Assembly (NCBI GenBank): GCA_035559535.1 | Contig: DATMBG010000022.1 | Span: 256,568-320,567 of the forward strand | Length of the DNA stretch: 64,000 bases | Origin: Candidatus Limnocylindrales bacterium | Lineage (GTDB): Bacteria > Moduliflexota > Moduliflexia > Moduliflexales > JAUQPW01 | Reading direction: 5' to 3' | Shown here: in pieces, positions 49,383 through 55,438 of the stretch | How positions within the stretch are numbered: position 1 is the first letter of the stretch | How the letters are laid out: each line of letters starts with the position of its first letter | The notes under the pieces: generated by a model | The model's database searches: none | What the model saw: the letters and a program-made list of their open reading frames with translations, nothing else | Told to the model about the DNA's origin: nothing | Position numbers and translations under genes: made by a program

Positions 49383-50324
49383 ATTAAACAGAGTTTTACC
49401 CTTCGCGTTCTCGATTCAGATGCCCATCAACGGTTGGATACCTTCCTTGCCCACCGGTCCGATGTATCTTTATCCCGATCCCAGGCTGCAAAACTTATTA
49501 AACAGGAGCGGGTTCGGGTGAACGGCCGTCCGGTAAAGCCCAGTTACGAAGTGCAGGTAGGAGATTGGATTGAGGTAGATCTGCCGGAACCGGAACCGCT
49601 GGAACTCGTTCCCGAAGAAATCCCTTTAGATATTCTCTATGAAGATGAAGCCCTTATCGTTTTGAACAAACCGGCGGGCCTGGTGGTGCATCCGGCACCT
49701 GGACACCCAAAAGGAACCCTTGTCCATGCCTTACTGGCCCATTGCCAGAATCTTTCGGGGATCGGAGGGGTCCAAAGACCCGGTATTGTCCATCGACTGG
49801 ATCGAGATACTTCCGGAGTTATGCTGATAGCTAAAACTGATCAGGCCCATCAAAGCCTTTCTACCCAACTGAAGAATCGGGAGATCATCAAGGAATATCT
49901 GGCCGTTGTTCATGGAATTTTTAAAGATAAAAAAGGGACTCTTTCCACAGTGATCGGACGGCATACCCATGATCGTAAGAAAATGTCCGTCTTTACCCGG
50001 CAGGGTCGTCCGGCCGTTACTTCCTATGAAGTGATTGAAGAATTTCCCAATTATTCGCTGGTGAAAATCCAGATCCACACCGGACGTACCCATCAAATCC
50101 GGGTCCATATGAAATATCTGAACCATCCTGTGGTAGGAGATCCTTTGTATGGAAGAGGTGCTAAAGATCAGGCCCTTATCCAGCGCCAGGCCCTCCATGC
50201 AAAACGTATCACTTTTAAACATCCGGTAACCGATCACCCCCTGGAGTTTGTGGCACCCCTACCGCAAGATATGAAAAATCTCCTTGAAAAGCTGCGAGCC
50301 TCATATGGAACTCAATCTCATTAA
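49383..50324 (+). CDS. rluD: RluA-family 23S rRNA pseudouridine synthase (RluD-like)
   Basis: This protein of about 313 residues has an N-terminal S4 RNA-binding domain (SRSQAAKLIKQERVRVNG) and a pseudouridine synthase domain with the catalytic Asp in GIVHRLDRDTSGVM, plus the VHPAPGHPKGTLVHALL and GRTHQIRVHMKYL motifs. It isomerises uridines in 23S rRNA; the exact site is inferred from resemblance to RluD. The family N-terminus (FTLRVLDSDAHQRLDTFLA) is encoded upstream of the first normal start, TTG 49434. No ATG, GTG or TTG lies between the stop at 49344-49346 and 49434, so ATT 49383 or an altered 5' end must be considered. Its last 20 bases overlap the next gene. Confidence 0.88.
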   Translation: MKQSFTLRVLDSDAHQRLDTFLAHRSDVSLSRSQAAKLIKQERVRVNGRPVKPSYEVQVGDWIEVDLPEPEPLELVPEEIPLDILYEDEALIVLNKPAGLVVHPAPGHPKGTLVHALLAHCQNLSGIGGVQRPGIVHRLDRDTSGVMLIAKTDQAHQSLSTQLKNREIIKEYLAVVHGIFKDKKGTLSTVIGRHTHDRKKMSVFTRQGRPAVTSYEVIEEFPNYSLVKIQIHTGRTHQIRVHMKYLNHPVVGDPLYGRGAKDQALIQRQALHAKRITFKHPVTDHPLEFVAPLPQDMKNLLEKLRASYGTQSH

Positions 50325-51630
50325 ATTTAGAGTCGGTGGAGTAGATTTTGGAATTTCCGTTGAGGAAGTCCAGGAGGTTATCTTCTATCCTAAACTGCGC
50401 CCATTACCAAGACCTCTACCCCCTGTTAAAGGGGTCTTCGAATTTCGCAATAGCCTGATCCTTCTCGTGGATCTACGGAAAAGATTGGGATTAGACTTTA
50501 CCGGTTTAACACGCAATACCCGGGTGATTGTAGCCAGATTAACCCAGGGACTTACGGGAATACTCGTGGAATCCCTCTCAGACTTCAAACGTATATCAAC
50601 AGAGTCTCTCCTCCCTCCCATTCCTTTGGCCGGATTCGGTGAAGACCTTTTGAAGGGAATTTATTTACAGGACGATGAGATGATCCTGCTTCCCGATTTT
50701 AATAAGATTCTATTTTCATTTATCCGGATCCAGTTGTCACCTCCCAGCCTCTTCGATCGGATAGCCCTTCGACATAAATTTAATAAAGGTCCGTTAACTT
50801 CGATCCTGGAAGAAATTTATACCCACCGGCAGATACCTTTTTCGACGACGCAGGCCAAGATACTTGCCAGATCCCTGGATCTGCCTGTTACCCAACTTTG
50901 TAAAATAACCTCCTTCTATCAGCGGTTTCATCCTATCTCCCCTCCCATTGAGTCCCTTGAAAGCCCGAGAATAGCCCAATTTGGGGATCAGGAATATCTC
51001 CAGCTTTCTCAACGTTTAGAAGAAGAGGAAAGAAAAGGAAAATTAAACCTTCTGGAGATAGAATCCCATAAGGAATCCCAAGATCTTATGGAGAGATGGG
51101 ATAGTTTCCTGGATAGAAATCCCTTTGACTTACCAAAGCCGGGCCCTAAGCAAGAAGCAAGGAACAAGACGCGAAGTTTTCTTGCTTCCCACCTCTTACC
51201 CCTGGTCACGGATTCTGGGAAGCAAATCCCTTTAACCCGATATAGAGATTTGGCCCGGAGACTGGATCTACCTACCCCCCAACTTGCGCATTTTATCTCC
51301 TTCTATAAAGGAAGTAGGGACAGGAAAATGAGCAAAGAGGATAAAGGGGAGGCCGCTGAGGTTAAATCGAAACCTGAGCTTTCTGTTAAGACCCTTTCGG
51401 AAGATCTTTTATCCGATAAGAACCAACCCTTACCGGAGGTACTTTATACCATTCTGGACCGACAAGGCTCTATCACCCCTGAAGATATTCGATTTATCAG
51501 TCGGGTTCGAAACCTTCCTGCCACGCAAGTCTACAAACTGGTTTCCTTTTTGTACGGGACGGAGGTCATTTTGAAAACAGAAAACTTGACAAGGAACCCG
51601 CAGGCAGTAGATAATGCCGGCTATAAATAA
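50305..51630 (+). CDS. CheW domain fused to repeated NuoE-N-terminus-like helical modules
   Basis: This 441-residue protein has an N-terminal CheW-like domain (residues 1-150): ELNLIKFRVGGVDFGISVEE, GVFEFRNSLILLVDLRKRLG and GILVESLSDFKRI. After that come three helical modules of about 48 residues, near residues 161-210, 288-339 and 372-421. They share a pattern of L..IL....IP...A..LA..L.LP..Q....SFY (for example ILARSLDLPVTQLCKITSFY and LARRLDLPTPQLAHFISFYK). That pattern is the signature of the N-terminal bundle of NuoE/HydC, but the cysteine-bearing thioredoxin part of NuoE is missing. ATG 50305 overlaps rluD by 20 bases. The next two genes are NuoF- and HydA-like, so it probably docks on that complex and links it to signalling; this is inference. 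Confidence 0.75.
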   Translation: MELNLIKFRVGGVDFGISVEEVQEVIFYPKLRPLPRPLPPVKGVFEFRNSLILLVDLRKRLGLDFTGLTRNTRVIVARLTQGLTGILVESLSDFKRISTESLLPPIPLAGFGEDLLKGIYLQDDEMILLPDFNKILFSFIRIQLSPPSLFDRIALRHKFNKGPLTSILEEIYTHRQIPFSTTQAKILARSLDLPVTQLCKITSFYQRFHPISPPIESLESPRIAQFGDQEYLQLSQRLEEEERKGKLNLLEIESHKESQDLMERWDSFLDRNPFDLPKPGPKQEARNKTRSFLASHLLPLVTDSGKQIPLTRYRDLARRLDLPTPQLAHFISFYKGSRDRKMSKEDKGEAAEVKSKPELSVKTLSEDLLSDKNQPLPEVLYTILDRQGSITPEDIRFISRVRNLPATQVYKLVSFLYGTEVILKTENLTRNPQAVDNAGYK

Positions 51631-51895: not shown

Positions 51896-53680
51896 GTGAA
51901 AACCCTTACCGATAAATGTTGTTCAAAATGCTGGGACAGTGAACTCCAACGCTGTCCGGTTTTTACAGAGTGCCAACCTCAACGGCCTTTGTCCCACTGT
52001 CATACAGATGAGGCTTGTATTCGTCAGCGTGAGGAGGTTGTCACCCGACTCCGGTATGGAGCCGGAACTTTGATTCGGGTTGGAGTGGGCACTTGCGGTC
52101 AACAGGCAGGAGCTTCTTCGGTATTGGGAGCTATTTTCATAGAACTTCAACGACGAAATCTTTCCCATGTAAGCCTTTCGATAACGGGATGTCTGGGAAA
52201 TTGCTTCCAGGAAGTTGTGGTTTCCATTTCTCATCCTAAATACCCCACCGTTCTTTACACCCAGGTAAGTGAAGACAGGGTTCCGTATTTGATTTCCGAG
52301 CACATCGAAAAAAAGCGTATTGCCCGGGATTTGGTTTTAGCTCAACTGGAGGAGCCCGGGAAAAAGCCTTTAGGTCATGTTCCGGTCTTCAAAAATCTAG
52401 ATTTTTTCCGAAAGCAGATCTGGCGCGTCTCAGAACGTTGTGGGCATATGGATCCTGAAAGCCTGGACGACTTTTTGTTGCATGGAGGTTTTCTAGGTCT
52501 TTCTAAAACCATCAGAGAAGCTAAGCCGCCGGACCTGTTGAAATTGCTTAAAGAATCTAAGTTAAAGGGTCGTGGGGGGTCTGGAGAAGATGTGGCCGAT
52601 AAATGGGCCCGCGTGGCTGCTGCAGATGGAGAGGAAAAATATATCATCTGTAATGCCCATGAAGGAGATCCGGCCTCCTTTAAGGATCGAAGGTTACTGG
52701 AAAGTGATCCCCTGGGGGTCATAGAGGCTATGACCCTGGCCGGATATACCGTTGGAGCCGGAAAAGGGATTATCTTTCTGAACCCCAGGTATGAACTGGC
52801 TAAAAAACGCTTAGAACTGGCCCTTACGAAGGCACGGGCCTTTAATTACCTGGGGAAAGAAATTCTCGGCTCGAACTTTTCTTTTGATATCGAGATTCGA
52901 TTATCCCCAGGAGATTACCTGTCGGGAGAGGAAACTTCTTTGGTTACTTTCCTGGAAGGTAAAGCCGGGGTTAGAAGGGTCCCACCTCCCTTAACCAGCC
53001 AGGGTCTGTGGAATCTTCCTACGTTGATCCACAACGTAGAAACCCTCTTGAACATACCCCTTTTGGTGGTCAAAGGGGTTGATTGGTTTCGTGAACAGGG
53101 TACCGGGAACAGTCCGGGAACTCGATGCTGGACCTTATCCGGATGCCTTCAACGGAGGGGGATCGTAGAAGCTCCCGTCGGTATTTCGATTCAAGATCTG
53201 CTGGATATGGGGGGTGGGGCCCTGCCCGGGAAGAAAATTAAAGCCGTTCATGTGGGGGGATATGTGGGAGGTTATCTGCCGGAGAGTCTGTTTCAGACTC
53301 CTTTAGACGACGTGTCCCTGAAAAAATCAGGTATTAGCTTGGGAATCGGATCTCTGGTAGCCCTGGAGGAAACCACGTGTATGGTTCATAAGACCTGGCA
53401 AGACGCTCTTTTTACGGCTAAAGAAGAGTGTGGTCAGTGTACCCCGGGGCGGGAAGGCTCTTATCAGATATCTCGATTTCTGGAGAAAATCTGCCGGGGA
53501 AGAGGAGTCCGAAGTGATCTTCAGAAGCTCAAAGAAATTGCTTTCTATATGCGGGAGGCTTCCATGTGCGCTTATGGGCGCTTTTCCCCTGGACTTATAT
53601 CCAGCTCTCTGGAGTATTTCCACTCTGAGTATGAGGAGCATTTGCAGAAGCACTGCCCGGCAGGGGTTTGTTTTAAATAA
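51896..53680 (+). CDS. HndB/NuoF-like flavoprotein of a hydrogenase-type complex, altered cluster site
   Basis: This 594-residue protein begins with a cysteine-rich stretch (CCSKCWDSELQRC and more, residues 8-42). A [2Fe-2S] thioredoxin-like domain of HndB type follows (VGVGTCGQQAGA, then ITGCLGNCFQE). The NuoF core has FMN/NADH regions (LKGRGGSGEDVADKW, YIICNAHEGDPASFKDRRLL, SGEETSLVTFLEGKAGVRR), then an SLBB segment and the C-terminal cluster domain. The motif normally written CGxCxPCR reads CGQCTPGR, so the third cysteine is Gly (codon 53447-53449). The usual NADEGDP reads NAHEGDP. There is no C-terminal ferredoxin domain. It should pass electrons between NAD(H) and a partner, but cluster N3 may be absent or changed. 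Start GTG 51896 lacks a good ribosome site. Confidence 0.82.
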   Translation: MKTLTDKCCSKCWDSELQRCPVFTECQPQRPLSHCHTDEACIRQREEVVTRLRYGAGTLIRVGVGTCGQQAGASSVLGAIFIELQRRNLSHVSLSITGCLGNCFQEVVVSISHPKYPTVLYTQVSEDRVPYLISEHIEKKRIARDLVLAQLEEPGKKPLGHVPVFKNLDFFRKQIWRVSERCGHMDPESLDDFLLHGGFLGLSKTIREAKPPDLLKLLKESKLKGRGGSGEDVADKWARVAAADGEEKYIICNAHEGDPASFKDRRLLESDPLGVIEAMTLAGYTVGAGKGIIFLNPRYELAKKRLELALTKARAFNYLGKEILGSNFSFDIEIRLSPGDYLSGEETSLVTFLEGKAGVRRVPPPLTSQGLWNLPTLIHNVETLLNIPLLVVKGVDWFREQGTGNSPGTRCWTLSGCLQRRGIVEAPVGISIQDLLDMGGGALPGKKIKAVHVGGYVGGYLPESLFQTPLDDVSLKKSGISLGIGSLVALEETTCMVHKTWQDALFTAKEECGQCTPGREGSYQISRFLEKICRGRGVRSDLQKLKEIAFYMREASMCAYGRFSPGLISSSLEYFHSEYEEHLQKHCPAGVCFK

Positions 53681-53689
53681 GAGGGGAAA

Positions 53690-55438
53690 ATGGATCTCAT
53701 TTCGATTCTTATCGATAACCGGGAAATTCAGATTCCCAGAGGAATTACGGTTTTAGAAGCGGCTGAATCCCTGGATATTAAAATTCCTGCACTATGTGTT
53801 TCCCCAGGCTGGGGAACGTCCGGTTTTTGTCGAAGTTGCGTGGTAGAGGTGGAAGGAGAGGATTACCTTCCCATAGCCTGTAGTCTGCCCGTTCAAGAAG
53901 GGATGGTTATCAAAACGAACTCCCCCAGAGTACTTGAATCCCGTAGATTAACGGTGGAATTGCTCCTTGCCCGCCATACCATGGATTGTGCTGTCTGTTA
54001 TCGAAATGGCAGGTGTTCTCTCCAAGATCTGGCAAATACCTACGGAATCAAGGAATCTCGATTTCTTACCCGAGAGAAACCCCTGGAAATCGATGATAAA
54101 AGTCCGGCCATTGTGCATAATCCCAACCGCTGTATTCTATGTGGTTTATGTGTTCAGGCCTGTTGCGATATCCAAACCGTTTCGGTGATTGATTTTGCCC
54201 ATCGAGGATTCGACCGGGTCGTGGAACCGGCCTTCGGACAGAGTCTTAATGAGGTGGAATGTGTTGCCTGTGGGCAGTGCATCCAGATCTGTCCGGTAGA
54301 ATCTTTCTATGAAAAAAGCGAGATCGATAAAGTAAGGGAAGCCCTGAGAGATCCCCATAAAGAGGTTGTGGCGTTTTTATCTCCTTCGGTGCCGCTCTCT
54401 ATCGGAGAAGAGTTTGGAATCGAGCCCGGAAAGTCTCTCTCCGGAGAAGTTATAAAGGCCTTGAAAATGGCCGGTTTTAAGAAGGTTTTTGATACCGCTC
54501 TGGGGGCCGATTTGGTAATCATGGAAGAAGCTTATGAGCTGTTAACCCGCTGGAATTCGGGTAAAAGTCTCCCTCTGATAACCTCCTGTAGTCCGGAGTG
54601 GGTCAAGTTCGTCGAGCACTTTTATCCGGAACTCTTACCTCATCTCTGTCCTACCAAATCCCCCCAGCAGATCATGGGAACTTTAGCCAAGACCTATTTT
54701 GCCGAGATTACGAAGATAGATTTGAAAAATCTCTTTACGGTTTCTATAACTCCTTGTACGGCTGAGAAGTTTGAGCGGACCCGACCGGAGTTAAATATCC
54801 AGGGTTTTCCGGATATAGATGCCTGTTTAACCGTCAAAGAGGTAGCCCGCCTCATTCGGATGACCCTGGGAAACCCTTTTCCCGATATCGGCTCCGAAGA
54901 GTTTGATCAACCCTTCGAGGTCTCATCGGGAGCAGGAGTTATATTCGGAGTGGCCGGGGGGGTCATGGAAGGTGTGCTGAGGACTCTGTACGAGCTTAAA
55001 GTCGGTAAGAAGTTGAAATCGGTAGCTTTTGAGAATATCCGGGAAGAAGTCAGAACTTCTTACAGCGGAGGCCTTCGGGAAGTGGAGGTTCAAGTAGGAA
55101 ATGAAACCCTTCAGGTTGCTGTGGTGCACGGATTAGGAAATGCCAGAAGGATATTGGAGGCCCTTCGATCCGGGAAGAGCCGGTATCATTTTATCGAAGT
55201 AAAAGGATGCCCCAACGGCTGTGCTCAGGGGGGCGGTCAACCTATTCCAGCTACCCTTGAAATTATTCAGGCTCGAGAACGCGGCCTTTATCTAGAGGAT
55301 GAAAAAAGAAAAATCCGTAAAGCCCATGAAAATCCCAGAATCAAAGAACTTTATGAAAAATTTTTTAAAAAACCCGCCAGTCCCACGGCCAGAAAATTCC
55401 TACACACGGAGTTTACGCCGCGGGAACACCATCTCTAA
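53690..55438 (+). CDS. [FeFe]-hydrogenase-like protein with altered H-cluster motifs
   Basis: This 582-residue protein has the domain order of a multi-subunit HydA. First comes a [2Fe-2S] domain (FCRSCVVEVEG), then a His-ligated [4Fe-4S] site (HTMDCAVCYRNGRC), two [4Fe-4S] ferredoxin motifs (CILCGLCVQAC, CVACGQCIQIC) and the catalytic domain with a small C-terminal subunit-like tail. The H-cluster motifs are changed. The first is TSCSPEW (usually TSCCPxW), the second TPCTAEKFE (usually MPCxxKKxE) and the third EVKGCPNGCAQGGGQP (usually ExMxCPGGCxxGGGQP). Cysteines 300, 356, 507 and 511 remain, but the Lys that holds the diiron cyanide and both Met residues near the diiron site are replaced. 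It may not make the normal active site. It begins 9 bases after the NuoF-like gene. Confidence 0.82.
   Translation: MDLISILIDNREIQIPRGITVLEAAESLDIKIPALCVSPGWGTSGFCRSCVVEVEGEDYLPIACSLPVQEGMVIKTNSPRVLESRRLTVELLLARHTMDCAVCYRNGRCSLQDLANTYGIKESRFLTREKPLEIDDKSPAIVHNPNRCILCGLCVQACCDIQTVSVIDFAHRGFDRVVEPAFGQSLNEVECVACGQCIQICPVESFYEKSEIDKVREALRDPHKEVVAFLSPSVPLSIGEEFGIEPGKSLSGEVIKALKMAGFKKVFDTALGADLVIMEEAYELLTRWNSGKSLPLITSCSPEWVKFVEHFYPELLPHLCPTKSPQQIMGTLAKTYFAEITKIDLKNLFTVSITPCTAEKFERTRPELNIQGFPDIDACLTVKEVARLIRMTLGNPFPDIGSEEFDQPFEVSSGAGVIFGVAGGVMEGVLRTLYELKVGKKLKSVAFENIREEVRTSYSGGLREVEVQVGNETLQVAVVHGLGNARRILEALRSGKSRYHFIEVKGCPNGCAQGGGQPIPATLEIIQARERGLYLEDEKRKIRKAHENPRIKELYEKFFKKPASPTARKFLHTEFTPREHHL

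Follow-up and report, generated by a model that had tools for sequence, protein, structure and literature searches.

The locus raises the question of whether a protein built like an [FeFe]-hydrogenase can still be one when the surroundings of its diiron site have been exchanged and, if not, what it has become. The gene, hydA*, occupies positions 53690..55438 of the plus strand of the window, i.e. the whole 64,000-nucleotide stretch of DNA that was analyzed. It encodes in an intact reading frame, without interruption, a HydA-like protein of 582 aa in which the H-domain is kept and the diiron environment is replaced. The results suggest that an old hydrogenase-type enzyme was put to another use, perhaps as a sensor.

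Architecture and diiron pocket of HydA*

HydA* meets the test for group A both by its H-domain fold (AF2 and Foldseek) and by its sequence signature (HMM). It passes TIGR02512 ([FeFe] hydrogenase group A) with 432.6 bits, relative to a cut-off of 405.95, and scores 706.7 bits with the curated model of the NADH-dependent [FeFe] hydrogenases of group A6, below the cut-off of 765. In the AF2 model, the pLDDT is 80-96 over most of the H-domain. The solved structures that come closest are the HydA1 subunits of two electron-bifurcating complexes, 8a6t, the top Foldseek match (E 1.7e-57), and 7q4v, followed by CpI; the Foldseek comparison with the D. desulfuricans hydrogenase yielded 2.1 Å over ~395 columns. 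The whole-chain rmsd of ~7 Å is not meaningful because the N-terminal Fe-S part of HydA* is poorly modeled. All 16 accessory Fe-S ligands are retained. Those of the [2Fe-2S] cluster (C36, C47, C50, C64; 53795..53881, plus strand) were identified as invariant columns and by mapping onto CpI, and those of the His-Cys [4Fe-4S] cluster (H96, C100, C103, C109; 53975..54016, plus strand) and of the two ferredoxin-like [4Fe-4S] motifs (C148-C158 and C191-C201; 54131..54292, plus strand) by the alignment. A PAS domain is absent from the Pfam result for HydA*. As judged from its sequence, HydA* is a homologue of the group A6/HydA1-type [FeFe]-hydrogenases.

The residues of the diiron pocket were tabulated from an alignment of 38 HydA-like proteins, 33 of them canonical, in CpI numbering. 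The three H-cluster motifs of HydA*, all on the plus strand, are TSCSPEW starting at residue 298 (54581..54601), TPCTAEKFE starting at residue 354 (54749..54775) and EVKGCPNGCAQGGGQP starting at residue 503 (55196..55243). The codons AGT, ACT, GAG and AAA specify Ser301, Thr354, Glu359 and Lys505, which correspond to C300S, M353T, K358E and M497K. These motifs and residues had been named by the sequence-only reading and were all confirmed by the sequence, the codons and the alignment. K358E, M497K and A230S, together with M353T or M353S, are common to HydA* and its orthologues (4/4). The canonical proteins invariably contain Lys358, which we take to be the residue beside the distal cyanide, as well as Met497, Cys299, Glu282 and Ala230 (33/33), and all but one contain Met353 (32/33). 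Neither K358E nor M497K occurs in any of these 33 proteins, and no alignment recovered the canonical Lys and Met in HydA*, a recovery that would have refuted the earlier claim of a lost diiron environment. Two of the four variants, both from the other family, additionally carry C299S, E282Q, Q325V and S232V or S232M, such that the proton-path residues C299 and E282 are lost. The positions of Cys355, Cys499 and Cys503 are kept in the HydA* variants, likewise those of F417, P324 and E279 in HydA*.

C300S alone means little because Ser300 is found in 24 of the 33 canonical proteins, including HydA1 of A. woodii (7q4v). Serine in the first motif was therefore rejected as a sign of inactivity, as the sequence-only reading had rightly cautioned. 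In G002 and G003, the motif is SSSSPAW, and TSCSPGW has been reported in the literature (PMC3787301). Canonical HydA (loci L005-L039 and L078-L083) invariably has the first Cys of TSC[C/S]P; the second, at which the serine occurs, is a cluster ligand in CpI. With regard to the other positions, a review reports that CpI and CrHydA1 variants at Met353, Met497 and Cys299 are partly or wholly inactive, that Met497 variants lose [2Fe]H, and that an Asn swap at the residue beside the distal cyanide, there called an arginine, results in an inactive protein devoid of [2Fe]H signals (PMC11376134). The occurrence of identical residues in a same-genus genome and of K358E and M497K in the genomes of the other family shows that the substitutions reflect neither chance nor sequencing error.

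Distribution, selection and maturation genes

An orthologue of HydA* was found in all four genomes of the phylum that were examined (G000, G001, G002 and G003), which represent two families and have a completeness of 93-97%; G003 is listed with 11% contamination. The clade that had been proposed as support for a new function, set apart and sharing the Lys-to-Glu and Met-to-Lys changes, does exist: in a tree of HydA-like proteins, containing no Nar1 or NARF, the four variants from the two families form one clade with 100/100 support. A degenerate DNA pattern for K-x-C-x-x-G-C-x-x-G-G-G-Q-P, scanned over 385 genomes from many families, matched in only these four genomes, once in each, and no hit to the control pattern was among the matches listed. 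The pattern detects only M497K in that motif and misses other degenerate HydA types. One scan of the GTDB contig collection yielded no variant other than that of the same genus; the other proteins were canonical or matched in the N-terminal part only.

In a comparison of the window with the 95%-identical orthologue, dN/dS was 0.076 for HydA*, 0.116 for HydB* and 0.174 for the CheW fusion (see below), values within the range of the neighboring genes (0.01-0.17). The HydA* proteins of the window and G003 are 51% identical in the H-domain and 58% in the Fe-S domain. Purifying selection on HydA* (dN/dS 0.08) thus argues against decay. Sequencing error and a pseudogene were rejected on the basis of the four orthologues and the same dN/dS.

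In G000, G001 and G003, neither HydE nor HydF nor HydG was found above the curated cut-offs, and the variant was the only H-domain protein found by the search. Three of the four genomes therefore lack the known pathway to the diiron site. Given their completeness, it is unlikely that the maturase block was missed in all three, although this cannot be excluded for any one of them. Among the four genomes, HydE, HydF and HydG occur only in G002, in one block with canonical HydA; with two canonical HydA in addition to the variant, this genome provides an internal control. The earlier inference that the protein carries only a [4Fe-4S] cluster or a different cofactor gains support from the clade and from the lack of HydEFG in three genomes but it is still an inference, and G002 contains both the maturases and canonical HydA. 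In our view, and without measurements of CO/CN ligands or H2 turnover, HydA* very probably does not function as an [FeFe]-hydrogenase in three or more of the four species. Homology-based annotation would name HydA* an NADH-dependent [FeFe] hydrogenase, and a phylum that includes members with four heme-copper oxidase genes would be wrongly credited with [FeFe]-based H2 metabolism.

The organisms differ in their energy metabolism. G000 and G001 have a NiFe hydrogenase match and four heme-copper oxidase-type matches, whereas in G002 and G003 no match to either was obtained. The NiFe locus of G000 (G000:C41; L113:5654-9249) encodes a group 3-like NiFe hydrogenase whose cysteine motifs, RICGIC and DPCISC, are intact and consists of a flavin-reductase-like subunit, the small and large subunits and a maturation protease; this organism may use H2 by means of this enzyme. 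The retention of the variant across very different energy metabolisms speaks for a role that is independent of one respiratory mode. A NiFe hydrogenase as a hidden partner of HydA* was rejected, since none is encoded in G002, G003 or the operon; for the genus, it remains possible.

HydB* and the CheW fusion

The gene order rluD, CheW fusion, HydB*, HydA* is conserved in all four genomes. The hydB* gene (51896..53680, plus strand) ends 9 nt before the start of hydA* and encodes a NuoF/HydB-like protein of 594 aa with a Cys-rich CCxxC prefix and no C-terminal ferredoxin domain. In each of the four orthologues, signature residues of four FMN/NADH motifs are replaced relative to canonical HydB: the Phe-Pro-Thr-Gly of GRGGxGFPTGxKW is lost, the Asp of CNADE is a His, the basic residue of (K/R)PP(F/Y)P is a Val or Ile, and the first Asn of NNVET is a His. 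The degenerate FMN/NADH motif in the window is GRGGSGEDVADKW (52568..52606, plus strand), the canonical form being GRGGAGFPTGLKW. The third Cys of the N3/B1 cluster motif, CGQCTPG (53429..53449, plus strand), is a Gly in 4/4. The C-terminal ferredoxin domain, which harbors the B3/B4 clusters, is missing from all four HydB* and present in both canonical HydB of G002. The Cys/His ligands of the B2 cluster, described for A. mobile HydB (PMC9304861), are retained with the exception of the variable C476 position. The Cys-rich prefix is invariant in the four HydB*; a similar prefix is also found on HydB of canonical complexes elsewhere. In NuoF, the nucleotide is framed by residues around E95 (PMC6560083); this Glu is kept in HydB*, and the GEE motif in three of the four, which means that FMN binding may be weakened rather than lost. 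Binding has not been measured. HydB* probably does not oxidize NADH.

In the canonical loci that were compared, HydC, HydB and HydA follow each other in that order, which places the CheW fusion where HydC belongs, its CheW domain taking the place of the ferredoxin half. The fusion gene (50284..51630, plus strand) encodes 448 aa, composed of a CheW domain (50320..50712, plus strand; Pfam PF01584, E 7.7e-25) followed by NuoE/HydC-like helical repeats. PF01584 is above the cut-off in the fusions of all four genomes. After the CheW domain, there are three to four copies of the helical segment; of NuoE only this helical part is present, without the [2Fe-2S] thioredoxin part of HydC. The Pfam NuoE model is above the cut-off in two of the orthologues and a custom NuoE profile matches three places in the G001 fusion, the individual repeats being weak matches. 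The AF2 model of the fusion is uninformative (pLDDT 44). The last NuoE-like repeat, intact in the other three genomes, is a remnant in the window genome (51631..51862, plus strand), with a frameshift and a stop, and reflects either a real truncation or an assembly error. Matches to MCPs (8 to 75) and to several further CheWs were obtained in each of the four genomes, such that chemosensory arrays are likely. G003 (8.4 Mb, with the contamination listed above) has 75 MCP and 22 CheW matches, far more than its relatives.

Possible roles and comparison with known systems

It was proposed that HydA* is a former subunit of a HydABC-type (group A6) enzyme whose diiron site is gone and which is maintained as an Fe-S protein. 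Loading of the accessory clusters is inferred to still occur. The three Cys at the C355, C499 and C503 positions may still hold a [4Fe-4S] cluster at the H-site, and the space left in the pocket would be occupied by Lys505 and Glu359, possibly paired in a salt bridge; both are inferences. HydA*, HydB* and the CheW-NuoE-repeat fusion are presumably one complex, their association being inferred as well. The least certain step is that this redox relay or scaffold docks on chemosensory arrays through the CheW domain, with the oxidation state of the Fe-S clusters rather than H2 turnover as the putative signal. A HydABC-derived non-hydrogenase Fe-S complex, including its least certain part, a CheW-docked redox input to the arrays, has in our estimate an even chance of being correct. 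The redox input taken by itself is, given the CheW fusion, the best available proposal for a function, yet it rests on anatomy alone, without binding or sensing data, and remains tentative. We are similarly hesitant about the stronger formulation, that a complete HydABC was domesticated into a non-enzymatic Fe-S redox sensor in which the catalytic ends (the diiron and NADH/FMN sites) were replaced, the wire was kept and HydC was turned into a CheW adaptor. Several points count against the proposal. The maturases of G002 could, in principle, supply the variant of that genome with a diiron unit; Lys505 might substitute for Lys358 from the opposite side of the pocket; HydB*, with its Glu95 and, in three of the four, the GEE motif, may still bind FMN; CheW domains can be co-opted, and neither binding nor sensing has been shown; the structure model of the fusion is uninformative; and the window genome has only a disrupted copy of the last NuoE-like repeat.

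The main rival explanation, possible but with roughly one chance in four, is a redox enzyme of the HydABC/Bfu type with a new substrate, in which HydA* relays electrons for a catalytic partner encoded elsewhere. There is a precedent in NiFe-HydA of Acetomicrobium mobile, which lacks the H-cluster-coordinating residues and serves as a relay for HydSL (PMC8880783). The retention of the accessory Fe-S wire of HydA* and of the B2 ligands of HydB* is consistent with a relay, as is the group 3-like NiFe hydrogenase in G000. However, the conserved operon is devoid of a catalytic subunit, G002 and G003 keep it in the absence of a NiFe hydrogenase, all four HydB* lack the NADH/FMN signatures and one of the N3 cysteines, and the C-terminal domain of NiFe-HydA could not be aligned with HydA*, of which 7t2r_A matched residues 4-205 only. 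HydA* could also be a hydrogenase whose H-cluster is altered yet functional, with K358E and M497K exchanging charges so that one positive charge stays near the cyanide. The intact fold, the C355, C499, C503, F417, P324 and E279 positions, the HydEFG of G002 and the frequency of Ser300 in canonical proteins would allow this possibility, which is nonetheless improbable in view of the three genomes in which HydE, HydF and HydG were not found, the strict conservation of K358 and M497 in the canonical homologues and the additional loss of C299 and the proton-path residue E282 in two of the four variants.

A scaffold or carrier for Fe-S assembly working like Nar1/CIAO3 is slightly less probable still. 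Nar1 provides the precedent of a diiron-less HydA homologue in Fe-S assembly (PMC12991071), but HydA* is group A6-like with a full N-terminal wire, and its conserved partners are HydB* and the CheW fusion instead of Fe-S assembly genes. That the operon is merely a decaying pseudogene without function, as the broken last NuoE-like repeat in the window genome might indicate, can hardly be maintained: the reading frames of HydA* and HydB* are intact in four genomes from two families at ~50% identity, and the operon displays dN/dS values of 0.08-0.17, identical specific substitutions and the full set of accessory Fe-S ligands.

Regardless of its role, HydA* is a natural experiment on the residues of the diiron site, in which the substitutions are fixed phylum-wide and the maturases are missing while the fold and the Fe-S wire are kept. 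A genuine link to CheW would show how a soluble respiratory/hydrogenase module can become a redox input for chemotaxis, and a sensor, if that is what the complex is, would constitute a new type of energy-taxis input. Within the open-licence literature, no publication was found that connects CheW, NuoE and hydrogenase in the way described here, nor one that describes these HydA substitutions.

Among known systems, the trimeric HydABC of A. woodii (7q4v), T. kivui (8a6t) and T. maritima (7p5h), whose HydA is of the group A6 type, share with this operon the HydB-HydA order, the accessory Fe-S ligands and NuoE-like repeats in the HydC position, and HydA* is colinear with their HydA over the full length (548 bits with 8a6t). 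The operon differs from them in the replacement of K358, M497 and M353 of HydA*, the absence of maturases from three of the four genomes, the loss of the FMN/NADH signatures and the C-terminal ferredoxin domain from HydB*, and the replacement of HydC by the CheW fusion. NiFe-HydABCSL and Bfu (PMC8880783, PMC9304861) resemble it in that an H-cluster-less HydA homologue is part of a HydABC-type module with the B2 ligands of HydB kept. In NiFe-HydABCSL, however, the NADH/FMN site works and the catalytic SL module is attached, whereas the HydA* operon has no catalytic subunit; moreover, the H-domain of HydA* is recognizable, and the C-terminal domain of NiFe-HydA does not align with HydA*. HydS of groups C and D, a HydA homologue with a proposed signaling function, has lost the proton-relay Cys (PMC8924675). 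HydS proteins reportedly keep the H-cluster and a PAS domain, whereas in HydA* the surroundings of the diiron site are exchanged and a separate CheW fusion protein provides the link. A canonical HydABC operon is directly adjoined, at L079:12907-14943 as well as at L083:3162-5252, by a second protein with an H-domain, which may be of the sensory HydS type.

Several genomes of family f122, which belongs to another phylum, share a conserved dead HydA of another kind (L077, L089, L091, L092). Its motifs are ISPCEAV, TGTAAKE and ELYACPGGC; Cys355 is lost and the accessory clusters are kept. It is ~30% identical to HydA* and forms a very long branch in the tree; canonical HydA paralogues also occur in the family. 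At L077:6698-10183 (G123), the gene lies beside that of a NuoF-like protein that carries the CCxxC prefix and lacks an FMN motif; no CheW gene was seen near the f122 dead HydA/NuoF loci. From HydA*/HydB* and this independent pair, it follows that HydA/NuoF pairs have probably lost both of their catalytic ends, and kept the Fe-S part, at least twice. NARF and Nar1 of eukaryotes are HydA homologues without a diiron site; HydA*, unlike them, has the full N-terminal wire of group A and is encoded in an operon with HydB and CheW. HydA homologues lacking the H-cluster, such as NiFe-HydA, NARF and Nar1, were thus already known; new, as far as could be found, is a phylum-wide HydA with a conserved, charge-swapped diiron pocket, accompanied by a HydB that has degenerated along with it and by a CheW fusion where HydC would stand.
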